From Mycolicibacterium fortuitum subsp. fortuitum (GTDB lineage Bacteria > Actinomycetota > Actinomycetes > Mycobacteriales > Mycobacteriaceae), in the NCBI RefSeq assembly GCF_022179545.1, contig NZ_AP025518.1, positions 1,984,001 to 2,048,000 of the forward strand: a DNA stretch of 64,000 nucleotides. The letters are read 5' to 3'. Made by a program: the position numbers and the translations under genes. The notes beneath the pieces were generated by a model. It saw only the letters and a program-made list of their open reading frames with translations, searched no databases and was not told where the DNA came from. Of the stretch, positions 58,359 through 64,000 are shown piece by piece. Position 1 is the first letter of the stretch; each line of letters starts with the position of its first letter.

Positions 58359-59513
58359 ATGGGACGGGAGCTGAATGTGACCAGGTTGGTGCCGCCGATG
58401 ACCGGCGACCCGCATGCGCTCGACGAGTTGCGGCTGCAGGTGCGCGCGTTCGTGGCCGAGCAGCAGCGGGCCGGAAGGATCGGCCGGTACGCCGACAGCT
58501 GGCTGACGGGATGGGACGAGGACTTCAGCCGGGCATTGGCCGCTCGCGGGTGGCTGGGGATGACGGTGCCGGTTTCGTACGGCGGGCACGGGCGCAGCCA
58601 TCAGGAACGTTTCGTGGTCACCGAGGAGCTGCTGGCGGCCGGGGCTCCGGTGGGGGCGCACTGGATCGCCGACCGTCAGATCGTTCCGTCGTTGCTGAAA
58701 TACGGCACCGAGGAGCAACGGCGAAAGTTCTTGCCGGCCATAGCCAAAGGAGAGTGCTATTTCGGGATCGGCATGAGCGAGCCGGATTCCGGCTCAGATC
58801 TGGCCAGCGTGCGCACCAAGGCTGTGCAGGTGGACGGTGGCTGGACCATAACCGGAACGAAGGTGTGGACCTCGGGAGCGCATCTGGCCCATGCGTTCAT
58901 CTGCCTGGCCCGCACCGCGCCGGTGGATCCAGCGCACCGCCACGACGGACTGAGTCAGTTCATCGTCGATCTGCGCGCACCGGGCGTCGACATCCGGCCG
59001 ATCATCTCGATGAACGGCAAGCATCATTTCAACGAGGTCATCCTGGATGAGGTGTTCGTACCCGACGCCATGGTGTTCGGCGCCATCGGCAACGGCTGGC
59101 AGCAGGTCACCTCGGAGCTGAGCTTCGAACGCAGTGGACCCGAGCGCTTCCTGTCGACGTTCCCGCTGCTGGCCGACATGGCCGAACACGTGCGCGACGG
59201 ATCTCTGCCGCGTCACACCGACCTCGGCCGCTACCTGGCCCGCATCACCGGTCTGCACCAGATGTCGATGGCAGTCGCCGGGGCGCTGGAGCGTCACGAG
59301 CCGGCCGATACGGCGGCCGCGGTGGTCAAGGTGTTGGGAACTGCCACCGAGGGCGACATCGCAGACTTCGCCGACGTTCTCGGTGAGACCGATGACGAAA
59401 GCTACTGCGCGATGCTGGCCGATGCCGTGGTGCAGCGGCCGGGGTTCACCCTGCGTGGTGGCACCAACGAGGTGTTGCGTGGGGTCATCGCGAGGGGACT
59501 GGGGTTGAGATGA
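58359..59513 (+). CDS. Acyl-CoA dehydrogenase, large subunit type (second pair)
   Basis: A 384-residue acyl-CoA dehydrogenase. Blocks YFGIGMSEPDSGSDLASVRT, ITGTKVWTSGA, FNEVILDEVFVP and the C-terminal TLRGGTNEVLRGVIARGLG are typical. ATG at 58359 or GTG at 58377 (after GGGAG) are possible starts. It is coupled by an ATGA overlap to a second dehydrogenase gene, suggesting an alpha2beta2 enzyme. It opens the accessory block that replaces the uvrD2 neighbourhood; no GACAC-N3-GTGTC operator is visible upstream of it. Confidence 0.88.
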   Translation: MGRELNVTRLVPPMTGDPHALDELRLQVRAFVAEQQRAGRIGRYADSWLTGWDEDFSRALAARGWLGMTVPVSYGGHGRSHQERFVVTEELLAAGAPVGAHWIADRQIVPSLLKYGTEEQRRKFLPAIAKGECYFGIGMSEPDSGSDLASVRTKAVQVDGGWTITGTKVWTSGAHLAHAFICLARTAPVDPAHRHDGLSQFIVDLRAPGVDIRPIISMNGKHHFNEVILDEVFVPDAMVFGAIGNGWQQVTSELSFERSGPERFLSTFPLLADMAEHVRDGSLPRHTDLGRYLARITGLHQMSMAVAGALERHEPADTAAAVVKVLGTATEGDIADFADVLGETDDESYCAMLADAVVQRPGFTLRGGTNEVLRGVIARGLGLR

Positions 59514-60523
59514 GTGTCGACACAGAATTGGTCGAGATGATGTCGGCGGTGTTCGCCGCGCACCGTGAACAGTACGCGCCCGGTGAGGGCACGGCCGAAT
59601 TATGGGGCCGGCTGGGCGATCTCGGATTGATCCGGCTGACCGGTTCCGAGGAGTCCGGAGGTAGTGGCGCCGGCTGGGCCGAGGCGGTCGAACTGCTGCG
59701 GGCGGCCGCCTGGCACGGGGTCAGGATCCCGCTGGCCGAACACGACCTGCTGGCATGTTGGCTGCTGCAGACGGCCGGCCACGCCGTTGACGATGCCCGG
59801 CGCACGGCCTGCCTGCTCGACAGCGATGGTGCGGCGCGCGGGGTGCCGTGGGCAGCGGACTCCGATCGGGTGGTGCTGCTCTGGCATGACGGCACGGGAT
59901 ACCGCATGGCCGAGGTAGACCCCGCGGCGCTGACGGTCAGCTCGGGCCACAACAACGCGGGGGAACCGCGCGACGACGTCCGCGCGAGCCTTGCCGATCT
60001 GACCGGAACCCCGCTGCCCGACAACGTGGTCGAGCAGTTCGTCCGACGTGCCGCGTTGGTTCGGGCGGTTCAGGTGTGTGCCGTCTTGGATCGGATCCTG
60101 GCGCTCTCGGTGGCACACACGACCGAGCGCACGCAGTTCGGCCGGCCGCTCGCCAAGTTCCAGGCTGTCCAGAATCTGGTGGCCGACATCGCGGCGGAGT
60201 CGGCGCTGGCACGGGCGGCCACCGATGGTGCGCTGGCCGAGGCGCTCCGTTCGGACTGGAATTCGCCGCACCTGGATTTCTTTGTCGCAGTGGCGCGTTC
60301 CTGCGTGGGCCATGCCGCCTCGGTGGTGGTGCGTAACGCCCACCAGGTACACGGTGCCATAGGCACCACCCGTGAGCATCGGCTGCACGAGTTCACGATG
60401 CCCGCGCTGTCGTGGCGTTCGGAATACGGTTCGGTGGCGCACTGGGACGACAAGCTCACCGAGTACGTCACGCAGGTGGGCTCTGACGGGCTGTGGGCAT
60501 TGGTCACCGCGACCGCTGATTGA
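59510..60523 (+). CDS. Acyl-CoA dehydrogenase, small subunit type (second pair)
   Basis: A 337-residue divergent acyl-CoA dehydrogenase. The N-terminal domain is reduced and the best-kept part is the C-terminal four-helix bundle: TERTQFGRPLAKFQAVQNLV, VVRNAHQVHGAIGTTREHRL and LSWRSEYGS. It has no recognisable catalytic Glu loop of its own that I can point to, which is usual for the minor subunit of heteromeric enzymes. ATGA overlap with the upstream gene. Followed after 81 bases by the XRE-cupin regulator. Confidence 0.83.
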   Translation: MSVDTELVEMMSAVFAAHREQYAPGEGTAELWGRLGDLGLIRLTGSEESGGSGAGWAEAVELLRAAAWHGVRIPLAEHDLLACWLLQTAGHAVDDARRTACLLDSDGAARGVPWAADSDRVVLLWHDGTGYRMAEVDPAALTVSSGHNNAGEPRDDVRASLADLTGTPLPDNVVEQFVRRAALVRAVQVCAVLDRILALSVAHTTERTQFGRPLAKFQAVQNLVADIAAESALARAATDGALAEALRSDWNSPHLDFFVAVARSCVGHAASVVVRNAHQVHGAIGTTREHRLHEFTMPALSWRSEYGSVAHWDDKLTEYVTQVGSDGLWALVTATAD

Positions 60524-60572: not shown

Positions 60573-60585
60573 GACACCGATTGTC
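60573..60585. promoter_or_regulatory. Operator copy A (XRE-cupin gene)
   Basis: GACACCGATTGTC, a degenerate copy of GACAC-N3-GTGTC (one mismatch in the right arm), 19 bases before the regulator start and directly followed by C-TATGGG, a possible -10. A second inverted repeat, GACAT-N6-ATGTC, lies just upstream at 60549-60564. This suggests autoregulation. Confidence 0.6.
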
Positions 60586-60604
60586 CTATGGGAGAATGCT
60601 CGTC

Positions 60605-61132
60605 ATGAGTGCTCTGTTGCGTGCTGTGCGTCAACAGCGGGGCATGACCCTCGAGGAGCTCGCTGATGCGACCGGCTTGACCAAGAGTTATTTGTCCAAG
60701 GTCGAGCGGCAGCGTTCGACGCCGTCCATCGCGGTCGCGATGAAACTGGCGCGGGCACTCGAGGTCGATGTGGCACAGCTGTTTTCGGAAGACCCAGCAG
60801 TCACGACGTTGTCTGTTGACCGTGCCGACGGGCGCGGAAGCAGCCGATATCAGGCTGTCGCCGCGGGGATGCTCGGTAAGTCGATGTCGCCGTTCATCGT
60901 GCGGCCGACGCTCAAGTTCGCCGAGCACCCGCACCCCGAGCATGCCGGGCAGGAACTGGTGTTCGTCCATGCCGGGATTGTGGAACTGCGATACCAGGAT
61001 GATCTGGTCACGCTGGAGACCGGCGACTGCGCGTATTTCGACGCCTCCTTGCCCCACCAGCTCCGGCAGCGGGGAAACACGCCCAGCGAGGTTCTGGTGA
61101 TCACCCACACCGAATACGGGCGCAATCGCTGA
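60605..61132 (+). CDS. XRE-family regulator with C-terminal cupin sensor
   Basis: A 175-residue protein. The Cro/C1-type helix-turn-helix spans about residues 4-60 (RQQRGMTLEELADATGLTKS, then YLSKVERQRSTPSIAVAMKL). A short linker leads to a single-domain cupin (about 100-172) with possible metal ligands His108, His110, Glu117 and His151 (EHPHPEHAGQE and LPHQLRQ). Regulators of this build sense small carboxylates, amines or sugars with the cupin. ATG at 60605 is chosen over the open frame from 60581 because it places the helix-turn-helix at the N-terminus. It is the likely reader of the GACAC-N3-GTGTC sites around it. Confidence 0.9.
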   Translation: MSALLRAVRQQRGMTLEELADATGLTKSYLSKVERQRSTPSIAVAMKLARALEVDVAQLFSEDPAVTTLSVDRADGRGSSRYQAVAAGMLGKSMSPFIVRPTLKFAEHPHPEHAGQELVFVHAGIVELRYQDDLVTLETGDCAYFDASLPHQLRQRGNTPSEVLVITHTEYGRNR

Positions 61133-61157
61133 TGGCTTCTGCCCGGGTGTGTGACGG

Positions 61158-61457
61158 TCAGCATTTGAGGTTCACGTGCACGGTGGGAATGGGCTCCAGG
61201 TCGGGCAGACCGTGAATCGTGACCGTCCTCGCCTGCGGGCGTAGCACCACCGACAGGACATCGGTCACCGTGCATTTGTCGAGCGGGCCGCTGCCGACGC
61301 GGTTGATGATCACCCGCTTACCGTCGGCCTGTAGTTGCGCGATGGTCTCGGCTGCCGACGGTCCGGTCGGGGCAGCTGTGGCGACTGCGGCTCCTGCCGT
61401 CAGGCCGCCGACGACGACGGCGACAGATAACGCCGTGATGGTTGCTATGTGCTTCAT
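61158..61457 (-). CDS. Small exported protein of unknown function
   Basis: A 99-residue protein with a clear signal peptide (MKHIATITALSVAVVVGGLT, cleavage near AVATAAPTG) and a 70-residue mature domain with two cysteines (DKCTVT and the C-terminal LKC), probably disulphide-linked. Such small two-cysteine secreted proteins are common in mycobacteria; some belong to DUF-type families of unknown function. The ribosome binding site AAAAGGAG is good. An operator B copy (61506-61518) and a TATGAT -10 stand directly upstream, so it belongs to the XRE-cupin regulon. Confidence 0.75.
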   Translation of the reverse strand: MKHIATITALSVAVVVGGLTAGAAVATAAPTGPSAAETIAQLQADGKRVIINRVGSGPLDKCTVTDVLSVVLRPQARTVTIHGLPDLEPIPTVHVNLKC

Positions 61458-61505
61458 GGCTTCTCACTCCTTTTCGATGGTCTGAGCAATACGCCTCCAT
61501 CATAG

Positions 61506-61518
61506 GACACAATGTGTC
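61506..61518. promoter_or_regulatory. Operator copy B (small exported protein)
   Basis: GACACAATGTGTC, exact GACAC-N3-GTGTC. On the minus strand it is followed by C and then TATGAT (61504-61499), a -10-like hexamer, with TTTCCG 18 bases upstream. The operator thus covers the promoter spacer of the 61457-61158 gene. Confidence 0.7.
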
Positions 61519-61611
61519 ATGACGGAAACGTATTGTCGTCAGGATCGCCGGCGTGAAAGGCTCTTGGTTGGCTTCGGTTTCTGCTCGACGGTTTCGGCTC
61601 TTATGCAAGCG

Positions 61612-62538
61612 CTACCGACGGGCGCCGGCCACGTTGCGTCGGTACCAGGGGCGGCCGTGCCAGCGCTGATAGTGCCAGACCGCGCTCGGCAGCAGGCCGC
61701 GCTTGTGTAGCCAGAACCCGTCGGGCGCCGTCAGGCTGGGATCGTGGCGGCCGACGGTTATCTCGCCGAGTGCCACGCCCTCTCCCTCCTCGGCTCGTCG
61801 CTCGGCGATGATCTCGCCCGATGCCGCGGTGATCAGGGTCGAACCCTCGAAGTGGCCGCGATAGGTCGCCGGCAGCCAGGGCATCGAGCATTCGAGGTTG
61901 CCTGCGTGTGCGGCGTGCACGCAGGGGGCACCGACGTACCGGGAGAACGAGGCCGCCGCGGCGCGGGCGGTGAGGCGGTTGTTGTGCTCGAGGCGGTCGA
62001 ACACGGTCCGTGGTCGCCAGCGGGGAATCGACCACCATCCCGAACCGGTCATGAGCAGGTCGACGCGACCCTGTAGGCGGCGGACCGTGCCTGTGCGCAT
62101 CAGTTCCCAGCACACCGCCGCGCCGACCTGATACCCGTCGGCGTCGATGATTCCGTCATCGTCGCCGCCCATGTAGAACGCGTTCTCCCACATGGTGGGG
62201 AAATCCTTGTCGTGGCGCCCGACAATGCCGGTCGGGTCGGCGAGCAGGTATGCGTTGCGGACATGTCCGTCGGCGTCGCGGCACAAGAAAGAACCGCCGA
62301 CCAGTGCGGCGTGCCGCCGGGCGAGCCTGGTGAGAAGTTGCGCGGCGGGGCCGTCCGGTGGCAACGCAGCGTCCGCCAGTGCGGGCGTGAAACCGATTCC
62401 GGTGGAGAAGAACTCGGGTAGTGCGATGATGCGCGCGCCCGCGCGCCCGGCTTCATCGCCGAGGCGCTCGCAAGCGGCCAGGTTGGCCGCAACGTCGGCC
62501 AGTGACGCCTCGAGTTGAACGGCTGCCGCCAGAACCAT
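61612..62538 (-). CDS. Carbon-nitrogen hydrolase (nitrilase superfamily)
   Basis: A 308-residue nitrilase-superfamily amidase. The catalytic triad is visible as Glu42 (ALPEFF), Lys111 (RHDKDFPTMW) and Cys143 (AAVCWELMR). Members hydrolyse amides such as N-carbamyl amino acids, omega-amides or aliphatic amides. ATG at 62538 is chosen because GAGGAG lies nine bases upstream. An exact operator C lies 36 bases upstream of the start. The C-terminal 60 residues (VWHYQRWHGRPWYRRN) are basic and unusual. Substrate unknown, presumably linked to the aldolase/DapA genes opposite. Confidence 0.85.
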   Translation of the reverse strand: MVLAAAVQLEASLADVAANLAACERLGDEAGRAGARIIALPEFFSTGIGFTPALADAALPPDGPAAQLLTRLARRHAALVGGSFLCRDADGHVRNAYLLADPTGIVGRHDKDFPTMWENAFYMGGDDDGIIDADGYQVGAAVCWELMRTGTVRRLQGRVDLLMTGSGWWSIPRWRPRTVFDRLEHNNRLTARAAAASFSRYVGAPCVHAAHAGNLECSMPWLPATYRGHFEGSTLITAASGEIIAERRAEEGEGVALGEITVGRHDPSLTAPDGFWLHKRGLLPSAVWHYQRWHGRPWYRRNVAGARR

Positions 62539-62573
62539 GATCGAACTCTCCTCGGGTTGTGAATGCATGGGTG

Positions 62574-62586
62574 GACACAGGGTGTC
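62574..62586. promoter_or_regulatory. Operator copy C (nitrilase-family gene)
   Basis: GACACAGGGTGTC, exact GACAC-N3-GTGTC, 36 bases before the minus-strand start at 62538. The divergent intergenic region therefore has one operator for each direction (C and D, 90 bases apart). Confidence 0.7.
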
Positions 62587-62653
62587 ATCCGCTCACGAGC
62601 CTAGCCGCAGGGGGCGTCGAAATGTTCTGGCGTGACGAATCGGCCCTATGCTG

Positions 62654-62683
62654 TTGACATCAGGACACAAGGTGTCCTACGGT
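62654..62683 (+). promoter_or_regulatory. Promoter with operator copy D (aldolase-DapA operon)
   Basis: TTGACA (62654-62659), 18 bases, TACGGT (62678-62683). The spacer holds the operator GACACAAGGTGTC (62664-62676), extended to GGACACAAGGTGTCC as a 15-base palindrome. Binding there would block RNA polymerase, a typical repressor arrangement. Confidence 0.7.
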
Positions 62684-62728
62684 CATTCTTGTGTCGCTGG
62701 TTCCCGCTACCCGGAAAGGCAGGCCGAG

Positions 62729-63514
62729 ATGACGACCACGCTTGGTGATTCGAAACAAGTTCTGATGCAGCGTGCTCTCGAGGGGTTGTCGACCCACATC
62801 GAGGAGTCCACCCTGACGACGCGGCAGAAGCTGGCACTGACATGCCGAGCACTCTTCGATGCCGGCCATGACTCCGGCCTGGCCGGTCAGATCACCGCCC
62901 GGGCCGGAAAACCCGGTACCTACTACACCCAACGGTTGGGACTGGGGTTCGACGAGATCTCCGAAGACAACCTGCTGCTGGTCGACGAAGACCTCAACGT
63001 CCTGGAGGGCGAGGGCATGGCCAACCCCGCCAATCGATTCCATACCTGGATCTACCGCGCCCGGCCCGATGTGCAGTGCATCGTGCACACGCACCCCTTC
63101 CATGTCGCGGCGCTGTCCATGCTGGAAGTCCCGCTGAAGGTGTCCCAGATGGATATCGCGCCCCTCTACGACGACTGTGCGTTCCTGGCCGATTGGCCCG
63201 GGGTTCCCGTCGGCAACGAAGAAGGCGAGATCATCAGCGCCGCGCTGGGAGACAAGAAGGCAATCCTGTTGGCCCACCACGGCCATGTGATCGCCGGAGC
63301 CAGCATCGAGGAATCGTGCTCGCTGGCGATGCTGATCGAACGCGGAGCCAAGCTGCAGCTGGCCGCGATGGCGGCGGGCACGATCGCCGATCTGCCGCCG
63401 AGGCTGGCGCGTGAAGCCCACGACTGGACGTTGCGGCCCAAGCGCAGCCAGGCCAATTTCGCCTATTACGCCCGGCGCGCGCTGCGCAATCATCCCGACG
63501 CGCTTAGCAGTTGA
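62729..63514 (+). CDS. Class II aldolase/adducin-family protein
   Basis: A 261-residue protein of the class II aldolase fold (fuculose-phosphate aldolase, ribulose-phosphate epimerase, decarboxylases). Metal-binding histidines are seen in VHTHPFH (His120, His122, His125 region) and LLAHHGHVIAG (His183-His186). The N-terminus before residue 30 is not family-like. ATG at 62729 follows CAGGCCGAG; the frame is open upstream to 62648, but that part overlaps the operator. First gene of an operon with the DapA-family gene 42 bases later. The substrate is unknown; related members decarboxylate hydroxy acids or cleave sugar phosphates. Confidence 0.85.
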   Translation: MTTTLGDSKQVLMQRALEGLSTHIEESTLTTRQKLALTCRALFDAGHDSGLAGQITARAGKPGTYYTQRLGLGFDEISEDNLLLVDEDLNVLEGEGMANPANRFHTWIYRARPDVQCIVHTHPFHVAALSMLEVPLKVSQMDIAPLYDDCAFLADWPGVPVGNEEGEIISAALGDKKAILLAHHGHVIAGASIEESCSLAMLIERGAKLQLAAMAAGTIADLPPRLAREAHDWTLRPKRSQANFAYYARRALRNHPDALSS

Positions 63515-63556
63515 TCCCCGAAACCAGCCCCGACCGTACGAGAAAAGGACATGAGC

Positions 63557-64000
63557 ATGCCTGCCAACGCTGAGATCCACGGAATTCTCGCCTATCCGGT
63601 GACCCCCTTCACCGACGACCATCAGATCGACACCGGCAAGCTCGCCGCCCTGGTCGAGCGCCTGGTCGCCGGCGGAGCGCACGGTATCGTCCCGCTCGGC
63701 AGCACGGGAGAGTCGGCGTACCTCACCGAAGCCGAGTTCGACACCGTCATCGACACCACGATCGGGGTGGTCGACCGGCGGGTGCCCGTCATCATCGGTG
63801 CCTCAGATCTGACCACTGCCAACACCATTCGGCGGGCGCAATACGCCGAGCGGGCCGGTGCCGATGCGGTCATGGTGCTGCCGATCTCGTACTGGAAACT
63901 GTCCGAACGAGAGATCGCGCAGCACTATGCGGCGATCGGCGCTGCGATCGGCATCCCGATCATGGTCTACAACAACCCGGCGACCAGCGGTATAGACATG
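63557..64000 (+). CDS. DapA/N-acetylneuraminate-lyase family protein, N-terminal part
   Basis: The first 148 codons of a dihydrodipicolinate synthase/NAL-superfamily lyase, cut by the window end. Visible family features are AYPVTPFTDDHQIDTGKLAA, GSTGESAYLTEAEF (the G-S-T-G-E carbonyl-binding loop) and VYNNPATSG, which contains the catalytic Tyr region. The Schiff-base Lys would lie just beyond the window. ATG at 63557 is chosen because AAAAGGAC ends seven bases before it; the ATG at 63551 is too close. It is cotranscribed with the class II aldolase, so both probably act on one carboxylate or sugar-acid pathway under the XRE-cupin regulator. Confidence 0.85.
   Translation, partial: MPANAEIHGILAYPVTPFTDDHQIDTGKLAALVERLVAGGAHGIVPLGSTGESAYLTEAEFDTVIDTTIGVVDRRVPVIIGASDLTTANTIRRAQYAERAGADAVMVLPISYWKLSEREIAQHYAAIGAAIGIPIMVYNNPATSGIDM

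Follow-up and report, generated by a model that had tools for sequence, protein, structure and literature searches.

A predicted palindromic operator linked to an XRE-cupin regulator, in front of a predicted pyruvic oxime dioxygenase-type and DapA-like enzyme pair in Mycolicibacterium fortuitum and its relatives

A gene block at the end of a 64-kb window of Mycolicibacterium fortuitum subsp. fortuitum (bases 1984001-2048000 of a single-contig 6.4-Mb genome; positions below are counted from the first base of this window) was analyzed for a regulatory system built around an XRE-cupin protein. The comparison with related genomes strongly supports a tie between this protein and a palindromic operator with the core GACAC-N3-GTGTC; the binding itself, its sign, the ligand, and the substrate of the target enzymes are predicted. 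The core regulon consists of the XRE-cupin gene, a class II aldolase-fold gene, and a dapA-like gene, with an amidase, a small exported protein, and a membrane protein as accessory members. Taken together, the sequence evidence is probably best explained by an autoregulated, locally acting one-component repressor of an operon for a pyruvic oxime dioxygenase (POD)-type enzyme and a DapA-fold lyase. An earlier note made from the window had proposed an XRE-cupin regulon with four 13-nt operators (A, B, C, and D, at 60573, 61506, 62574, and 62664), and all four are present, each 5' of the gene named for it; three match exactly, and the fourth has one mismatch. The promoter details given there were also confirmed, with site D between TTGACA and TACGGT and site B before TATGAT on the minus strand. 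Some of its proposals had to be adjusted: GACAC-N3-GTGTC is the core of the operator, the conserved block being longer and including the promoter boxes, and of the members listed the XRE-cupin, aldolase, and DapA-like genes form the core, the amidase and the exported protein being only accessory. The module is real, well conserved, and of a familiar regulator-operator type, and the claim that it is undescribed agrees with the open-licence literature, in which no earlier description, no paper with the motif string, and none joining POD and dihydrodipicolinate was found.

The conservation of the site was followed with a profile scan of named genomes, using an alignment of the aldolase-fold protein, and the best 80 of 126 relatives were taken as the locus set. 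These belong to Mycobacterium (in the wide sense), Nocardia, Rhodococcus, Prescottella, Segniliparus, Tsukamurella, Gordonia, Saccharopolyspora, Sciscionella, and a few other genera. A site with at most one mismatch was present within 150 bp 5' of the aldolase-fold gene in 73 of the 80 loci, with a spacer of 3 nt in 69 of them (58 exact) and of 2 nt in the remaining four (L228, L233, L235, and L241, from Tsukamurella twice, Sciscionella, and Saccharopolyspora), where the half-sites are nearly unchanged. Control windows elsewhere in the same loci matched at up to one mismatch in 14 of 4760 cases for the 3-nt form and in 26 of 4760 for the 2-nt form, with no exact match for either; since these windows lie for the most part in coding DNA and have a higher GC content (locus mean 0.665 versus 0.579 for the upstream windows) and many loci are close kin and not independent, the figures show the size of the effect and not a probability. 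When all 9216 five-base palindromes with spacers of 0 to 8 were ranked, GACAC with spacer 3 came first (58 loci), and the next ones (21, 21, and 15 loci) were other registers of the same palindrome. The dapA-like gene lies 3' of the aldolase-fold gene in 77 of the 80 loci.

The presence of the site follows that of the regulator. A regulator homologue is encoded within 2.6 kb in 71 of the 80 loci, and 70 of these 71 carry the site, which supports the XRE-cupin regulon proposed in the earlier note. The exception, Gordonia jinhuaensis, has a neighboring homologue that is only 31% identical and 1.9 kb off, the other 70 having about 42% identity or higher. The genomes of this exception and of the nine loci without a neighboring homologue were then searched for a distant regulator. 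The three of them with a site all encode a close homologue in another part of the genome or at the end of a contig (E 1.3e-105, 1.9e-96, and 1.7e-83), and in the seven genomes lacking the site, including M. celatum and M. shimoidei, no regulator match better than E 1.7e-17 was found. A sample of 148 genomes of the genus gave a similar picture, with orthologues defined as matches at E ≤3.3e-48 (the next match being 9.0e-18). The extended pattern AKGAMACNNNGTKTCMTA was found in 51 of 56 genomes with an orthologue versus 2 of 92 without one (Fisher 2.8e-31), which is a specificity check and no blind test, as some of the 56 genomes supplied loci on which the pattern had been shaped and some are of species also represented in the 80 loci; a reversed control pattern was found in 2 of 56 and 4 of 92. 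The five misses have diverged sites, with three to four mismatches to the 16 fixed bases, 27 to 67 bp 5' of the gene, and in G115, which has the pattern and no orthologue, none of the genes of the module lies beside it. In G094, the aldolase-dapA pair and a regulator-amidase-membrane protein cluster are on separate contigs, and a site is found at each. A side case is M. frederiksbergense (L175 and L178), in which one contig bears two aldolase-dapA loci, separated by about 270 kb and each with a site; partial regulator copies lie beside one of the loci, and an intact regulator is on another contig. Rhodococcus erythropolis (L226) has all four elements, the regulator, the site, the aldolase gene, and dapA.

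The footprint drawn from 61 non-redundant promoters has its highest information at TTGAC (-35), A(G/T)GACAC-N3-GTGTCCTA, and TAnnGT (-10). The operator can be written (TTGAC)NATA(G/T)GACAC-N3-GTGTCCTA(T)NGT, with the palindrome in the -35/-10 spacer of the promoter of the aldolase-fold gene. TAnnnT stands next to the operator core in 68 of 73 promoters. As the operator fills the spacer, the usual place for a steric repressor, the arrangement suggests repression. In 53 of the 71 loci the regulator gene is transcribed divergently from the aldolase gene, and there a single palindrome could serve both sides. A further GTGTC follows 21 to 25 bp past the operator centre, each of its bases being kept in 42 to 49 of the 61 promoters. 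In the window, this third half-site lies 19 bp past the second one and is, as said, conserved in the promoters of most relatives. Of the window promoters, that of site D has both boxes, and that of site B has TATGAT with a weak -35. A one-mismatch site 5' of the XRE-cupin gene is also found in the seven closest of the relatives compared (L081-L087), at 55 to 61 bp from the start there.

The motif alone would not identify the regulon; its clustering and conservation do. Exact GACAC-N3-GTGTC occurs three times in the window versus 0.12 expected, a count reached in 0 of 100 shuffles, and at up to two mismatches no excess is seen there (36 found, 52 expected). Genome-wide, 12 exact cores were counted versus about 12 by extrapolation from 0.12 per 64 kb. 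Of the frequency check suggested in the earlier note, the clustering in the window thus stood, whereas across the genome the bare core is no rarity. The extended form TAGGACAC-N3-GTGTCCTA has 10 places in the genome at up to three mismatches, fewer than the 17 of its reversed control, and four at up to two mismatches, three of which are sites D, A, and B (site C is outside this list). A larger regulon in this genome was considered and rejected, because the other nine exact cores have weak outer arms (of the 16 fixed bases in the extended motif, three to six are mismatched) and fit the background; among the exact cores and extended-motif matches, no convincing distant member was found. A weak lead, which may be due to chance, is the exact core at G000:C1:533552-533564 (L012), with symmetric GG/CC arms and three mismatches, about 115 bp 5' of an MspA-type porin gene.

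The regulator scores above the cut-off for both HTH_3 and Cupin_2, and its nearest solved fold is 1y9q. The segment TKSYLSK(V/I)ER, which by its position is probably the recognition helix, is nearly invariant, in keeping with the invariant operator core, and specific DNA binding is predicted from the co-occurrence of site and regulator. In the cupin domain, H113, E117, and H151 are invariant in 36 regulator sequences. In VIA-align, Fe(II) cupins are near to this domain, but equal scores are reached by other cupins whose functions are unrelated, so that the comparison shows the fold and not the ligand. A reading of the block as a defence system was rejected, as in PADLOC only the regulator scores, mainly over its helix-turn-helix part.

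The earlier note had seen no obvious known match for the gene set, and here the evidence points elsewhere: by sequence and by most active-site residues, the "aldolase" appears to belong to the POD family, and POD activity is predicted for its clade. Its three top PDB matches have E-values of 2.6e-78 to 2.1e-76, the next one having 1.3e-25. All three codes appear in one POD structure paper (PMC11841055), which names 8IL8 (the match at 2.6e-78) as the Alcaligenes faecalis enzyme and also names 8IX6 and 8IQA. The value for 8IL8 lies within the threshold used in that paper for POD (E <1e-60 to the A. faecalis enzyme), although E-values depend on database size. Among 89 aligned sequences, nine of the 12 catalytic or signature positions given there are invariant, one is always aromatic, and two differ. 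The His triad and Gln53, Phe103, His104, and Glu164 correspond to H120, H122, H184, Q54, F104, H105, and E165 (89 of 89), the equivalents of Lys8 and Glu229 are K9 and E229 (89 of 89), and position 233 is W in 88 sequences and Y in one. The highly conserved Met19 of POD is replaced by L20 here (M in 45 of 89), and in the parts of PMC11841055 drawn on here neither Met19 nor Phe69 is called completely conserved. The same paper, citing other work, describes recombinant POD homologues as active, and a putative mycobacterial POD, M. liflandii MULP_00998, appears in a tree legend of 2017 (PMC5216522).

The DapA-like protein is, by sequence, not a dihydrodipicolinate synthase (DHDPS). Lys169 and Tyr140 are kept, and Thr145 stands at the position of DHDPS Arg138 in 82 of 82 sequences; we assume the textbook roles of the Schiff-base Lys, the Tyr, and Arg138 in DHDPS, the Arg138 position having been matched by the YNxPxxxG motif. 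The protein scores under the TIGR00674 cut-off (185.1 versus 206.15), and by far its top PDB match is 3na8 (E 3e-108), that is, PA0223 of Pseudomonas aeruginosa, reported as being without DHDPS activity (PMC3281039). A role in lysine biosynthesis was therefore rejected on the score, the Thr, and the inactivity of PA0223 as DHDPS.

In the mechanism that we propose, a dimer of the XRE-cupin protein would bind in the promoter spacer and block RNA polymerase, and a small ligand, an oxime or a 2-oxo acid, would release it by binding at the metal-type His-Glu-His site of the cupin. The conserved target would be the two-gene operon of a POD-type Fe(II) enzyme and a pyruvate-Schiff-base (DapA-fold) lyase, to which M. 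fortuitum would have added the amidase, the small exported protein, and the membrane protein. Pyruvic oxime or a related 2-oximino acid may be oxidized to a 2-oxo acid and nitrite; the DapA-like enzyme would deal with the carbon of pyruvate, and the amidase would supply the pathway.

Besides the limits of the controls and of the extended pattern given above, several observations weigh against this explanation. The core 13-mer is at chance frequency across the genome, sites A and C are without a good -10 box, and two Nocardia amidase genes have no upstream site. G089 (92% complete) has no detected orthologue of the regulator, yet a site lies just 5' of its truncated aldolase gene; as this gene matches only from residue 29, it is probably a decayed locus. 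On the enzyme side, Phe69 of A. faecalis POD, important for substrate affinity, is Leu here (L70) and in 85 of the 89 sequences (F in four), the NCBIfam equivalog NF005484, to which the protein belongs with 469 versus 261 bits, is named just "aldolase", and a POD homologue in A. faecalis has 5.5% of the POD rate constant, its authors allowing for roles outside nitrification (PMC8629993). The loss of Phe69 and the equivalog name also favor an alternative in which the regulator and the operator are the same and the enzymes serve an ordinary catabolic pathway, the kind of reading given in the earlier note, here for a hydroxy- or amide-containing carboxylate through a zinc class II aldolase or pyruvate aldolase. 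Pyruvate cleavage from hydroxy-oxo acids is common among DapA-fold lyases, and the PF00596 fold also speaks for this reading. The A. faecalis pod cluster contains a gene for a GST-type isomerase of the sort described in naphthalene degradation (PMC8629993). We nevertheless hold the zinc aldolase to be rather unlikely, given the wide gap between the three PDB relatives from POD structure work and the next match, a fucA equivalog score of 64.8 against a cut-off of 400.25, and the fate of the six residues whose mutation cripples POD, of which four are invariant, Tyr233 stays aromatic, and only Phe69 becomes Leu.

The regulatory half of the explanation has its own competitors. The XRE-cupin protein might be an activator or a dual regulator, as the sequence does not settle the sign and the 18-bp spacing of the boxes at site D is slightly long, but this is quite improbable: the operator lies inside the promoter spacer beside TAnnnT, where a bound helix-turn-helix protein is expected to block the polymerase, and two mycobacteria (L204 and L215) without a close regulator are also without the site, yet keep the enzyme pair. 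It is very improbable that the palindrome belongs to another DNA-binding protein, or serves as an element of the promoter or of an RNA, with the regulator a neighbor by chance. The conserved block does consist in part of the -35 and -10 boxes themselves, the genome has several XRE-cupin paralogues (seven matches in G000), and in G089 a site is present although no orthologue was detected; however, site presence tracks this homologue even where it is encoded elsewhere, and not the paralogues, some XRE-cupin match being found in 146 of the 148 genomes, and an Rfam search with E values up to 0.1 allowed gave no match, on which the RNA element was rejected. Chance clustering of the motif, for which the genome-wide count and the lack of excess at two mismatches could be cited, was rejected as having a negligible probability, because the site is kept across many genera, is almost absent from the control windows, and co-occurs with the regulator.

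Table 1. Features of the XRE-cupin block, in window coordinates unless a locus is given
Feature	Position	Strand	Remarks
Operator A	60573..60585	+	GACACCGATTGTC, one mismatch to GACAC-N3-GTGTC; centre 26 bp 5' of the XRE-cupin ATG; proposed autoregulation site
XRE-cupin regulator gene, 175 aa	60605..61132	+	HTH_3 7.8e-17, Cupin_2 8.9e-13
Small exported protein gene, 99 aa	61158..61457	-	No family; accessory member
Operator B	61506..61518	-	Exact; 5' of the exported-protein gene; followed by TATGAT on the minus strand
Nitrilase-superfamily amidase gene	61612..62538	-	PF00795; E42, K111, C143; alternative start 62568; accessory member
Operator C	62574..62586	-	Exact core, weak outer arms; 5' of the amidase gene; no clear -10 box
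Aldolase operon promoter	62654..62683	+	TTGACA (62654-62659), 18-bp spacer with operator D, TACGGT (62678-62683)
Operator D	62664..62676	+	Exact; core of an about 29-bp palindrome; best match of the genome to the extended motif
Third conserved half-site GTGTC	62691..62695	+	21-25 bp past the operator centre, near the expected transcription start
Class II aldolase-fold gene, predicted pyruvic oxime dioxygenase family	62729..63514	+	
DapA/NAL-superfamily lyase gene	63551..64000, on to window-equivalent 64441 (L011:7551-8441)	+	
Membrane protein gene, 146 aa	L011:8452-8892	+	In the operon after the dapA-like gene, beyond the window end

The plus-strand operon runs from the class II aldolase-fold gene through the dapA-like gene to the membrane protein gene, and a convergent Rrf2 gene closes the block (Table 1). 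Over the 80 loci, only the aldolase, DapA, and regulator genes recur broadly. The amidase (eight loci, two outside Mycobacterium) and the membrane protein (six, four outside) come next in counts from a home-made gene caller that undercounts (by tblastn, the membrane protein is present in 11 of the 80 loci), and no further gene recurring broadly across genera was seen among the 28 largest clusters listed. The PF00795 assignment of the amidase holds, and E42, K111, and C143, which we take to be the Glu-Lys-Cys triad of the nitrilase superfamily, are kept in eight of eight sequences (the window and seven loci). An exact site lies within 120 bp 5' of the amidase gene in six of eight copies of relatives and of the small exported protein gene in 9 of 13. 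The membrane protein, for which the profile searches gave no named family, is encoded beside dapA here, beside the regulator in Rhodococcus, and behind the amidase in G094. In G092 and G088, two related genomes (probably Mycobacteroides) that count as one case, a site lies 5' of an exported-protein gene far from the regulator; the G092 protein has weak similarity to that of the window (32% over 31 residues). G092 has additional exact cores, none of them close to the regulator: two (L263:7450 and 10748) are at the beginning of a large open reading frame without a family and before a GDPD-family gene, and another (L265:6111) separates a flavin monooxygenase gene from that of a small exported protein. 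In the window, a tandem pair of acyl-CoA dehydrogenase-like genes (58359-60523) lies 5' of the regulator, a position kept, among the relatives compared, only in the closest ones.

Outside these lineages, Proteobacteria such as Grimontia, Acinetobacter, and Caballeronia keep the enzyme pair with no regulator match in the locus, and in Caballeronia an amidase gene lies 5' of the pair. POD-like genes without a dapA match are found next to an amidase gene (a Pantoea plasmid) or a diiron oxygenase gene (a Burkholderia plasmid). These neighborhoods fit nitrogen-oxygen chemistry and do not fix the substrate. On the plasmid of Burkholderia stagnalis (L249), the POD-like gene and the diiron oxygenase gene are in an apparent biosynthetic cluster with ketosynthases and acyl carrier proteins.

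The more interesting part of the system is its target, the POD-type enzyme pair. The genes of heterotrophic nitrification are partly known, pod-like genes are carried by many bacteria, including mycobacteria, and in 2021 the regulator of the A. faecalis pod clusters was stated to be unknown (PMC8629993). The predicted operator and regulator offer a handle, since the ligand of the regulator would indicate on which compound the enzymes of this clade really act. Should nitrite be the product, mycobacteria would have an O2-dependent source of it. A bolder and, as a whole, unlikely possibility is a dedicated hydroxylamine/oxime regulon in mycobacteria and related bacteria. In this scheme, the amidase might release hydroxylamine from hydroxamates, or else an oximino acid from the corresponding amide, the Schiff base of the DapA-like enzyme might make or unmake pyruvic oxime, the POD-type enzyme might convert it to pyruvate and nitrite, and the repressor might detect this oxime by means of a 2-His-1-Glu metal centre of the kind present in Fe(II) cupin enzymes. 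If true, this would be the first transcription factor and operator for a pod gene within the open-licence literature.

Compared with known XRE-cupin one-component regulators (PuuR and 1y9q), the regulator described here has its own operator and target genes, and it scores far below the PuuR equivalog cut-off (41.2 versus 211 bits). The DapA-like protein shares with DHDPS/DapA the fold family and the Schiff-base Lys and Tyr, but not the equivalent of Arg138. A likeness is also seen to the PA0223/PA0224 pair of P. aeruginosa, genes that we presume to adjoin from their locus numbers, PA0223 being the nearest solved relative of the DapA-like protein. PA0224 is among the putative PODs listed in PMC5216522. 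With A. faecalis POD, the enzyme shares the class II aldolase fold, His119/121/183, Gln53, Phe103, His104, Glu164, Lys8, Glu229, and the aromatic residue 233, and differs in having Leu for Phe69 and Met19. The pod cluster of A. faecalis contains other genes (PMC8629993), whereas here the partner is a DapA-like lyase gene beside that of the XRE-cupin regulator.

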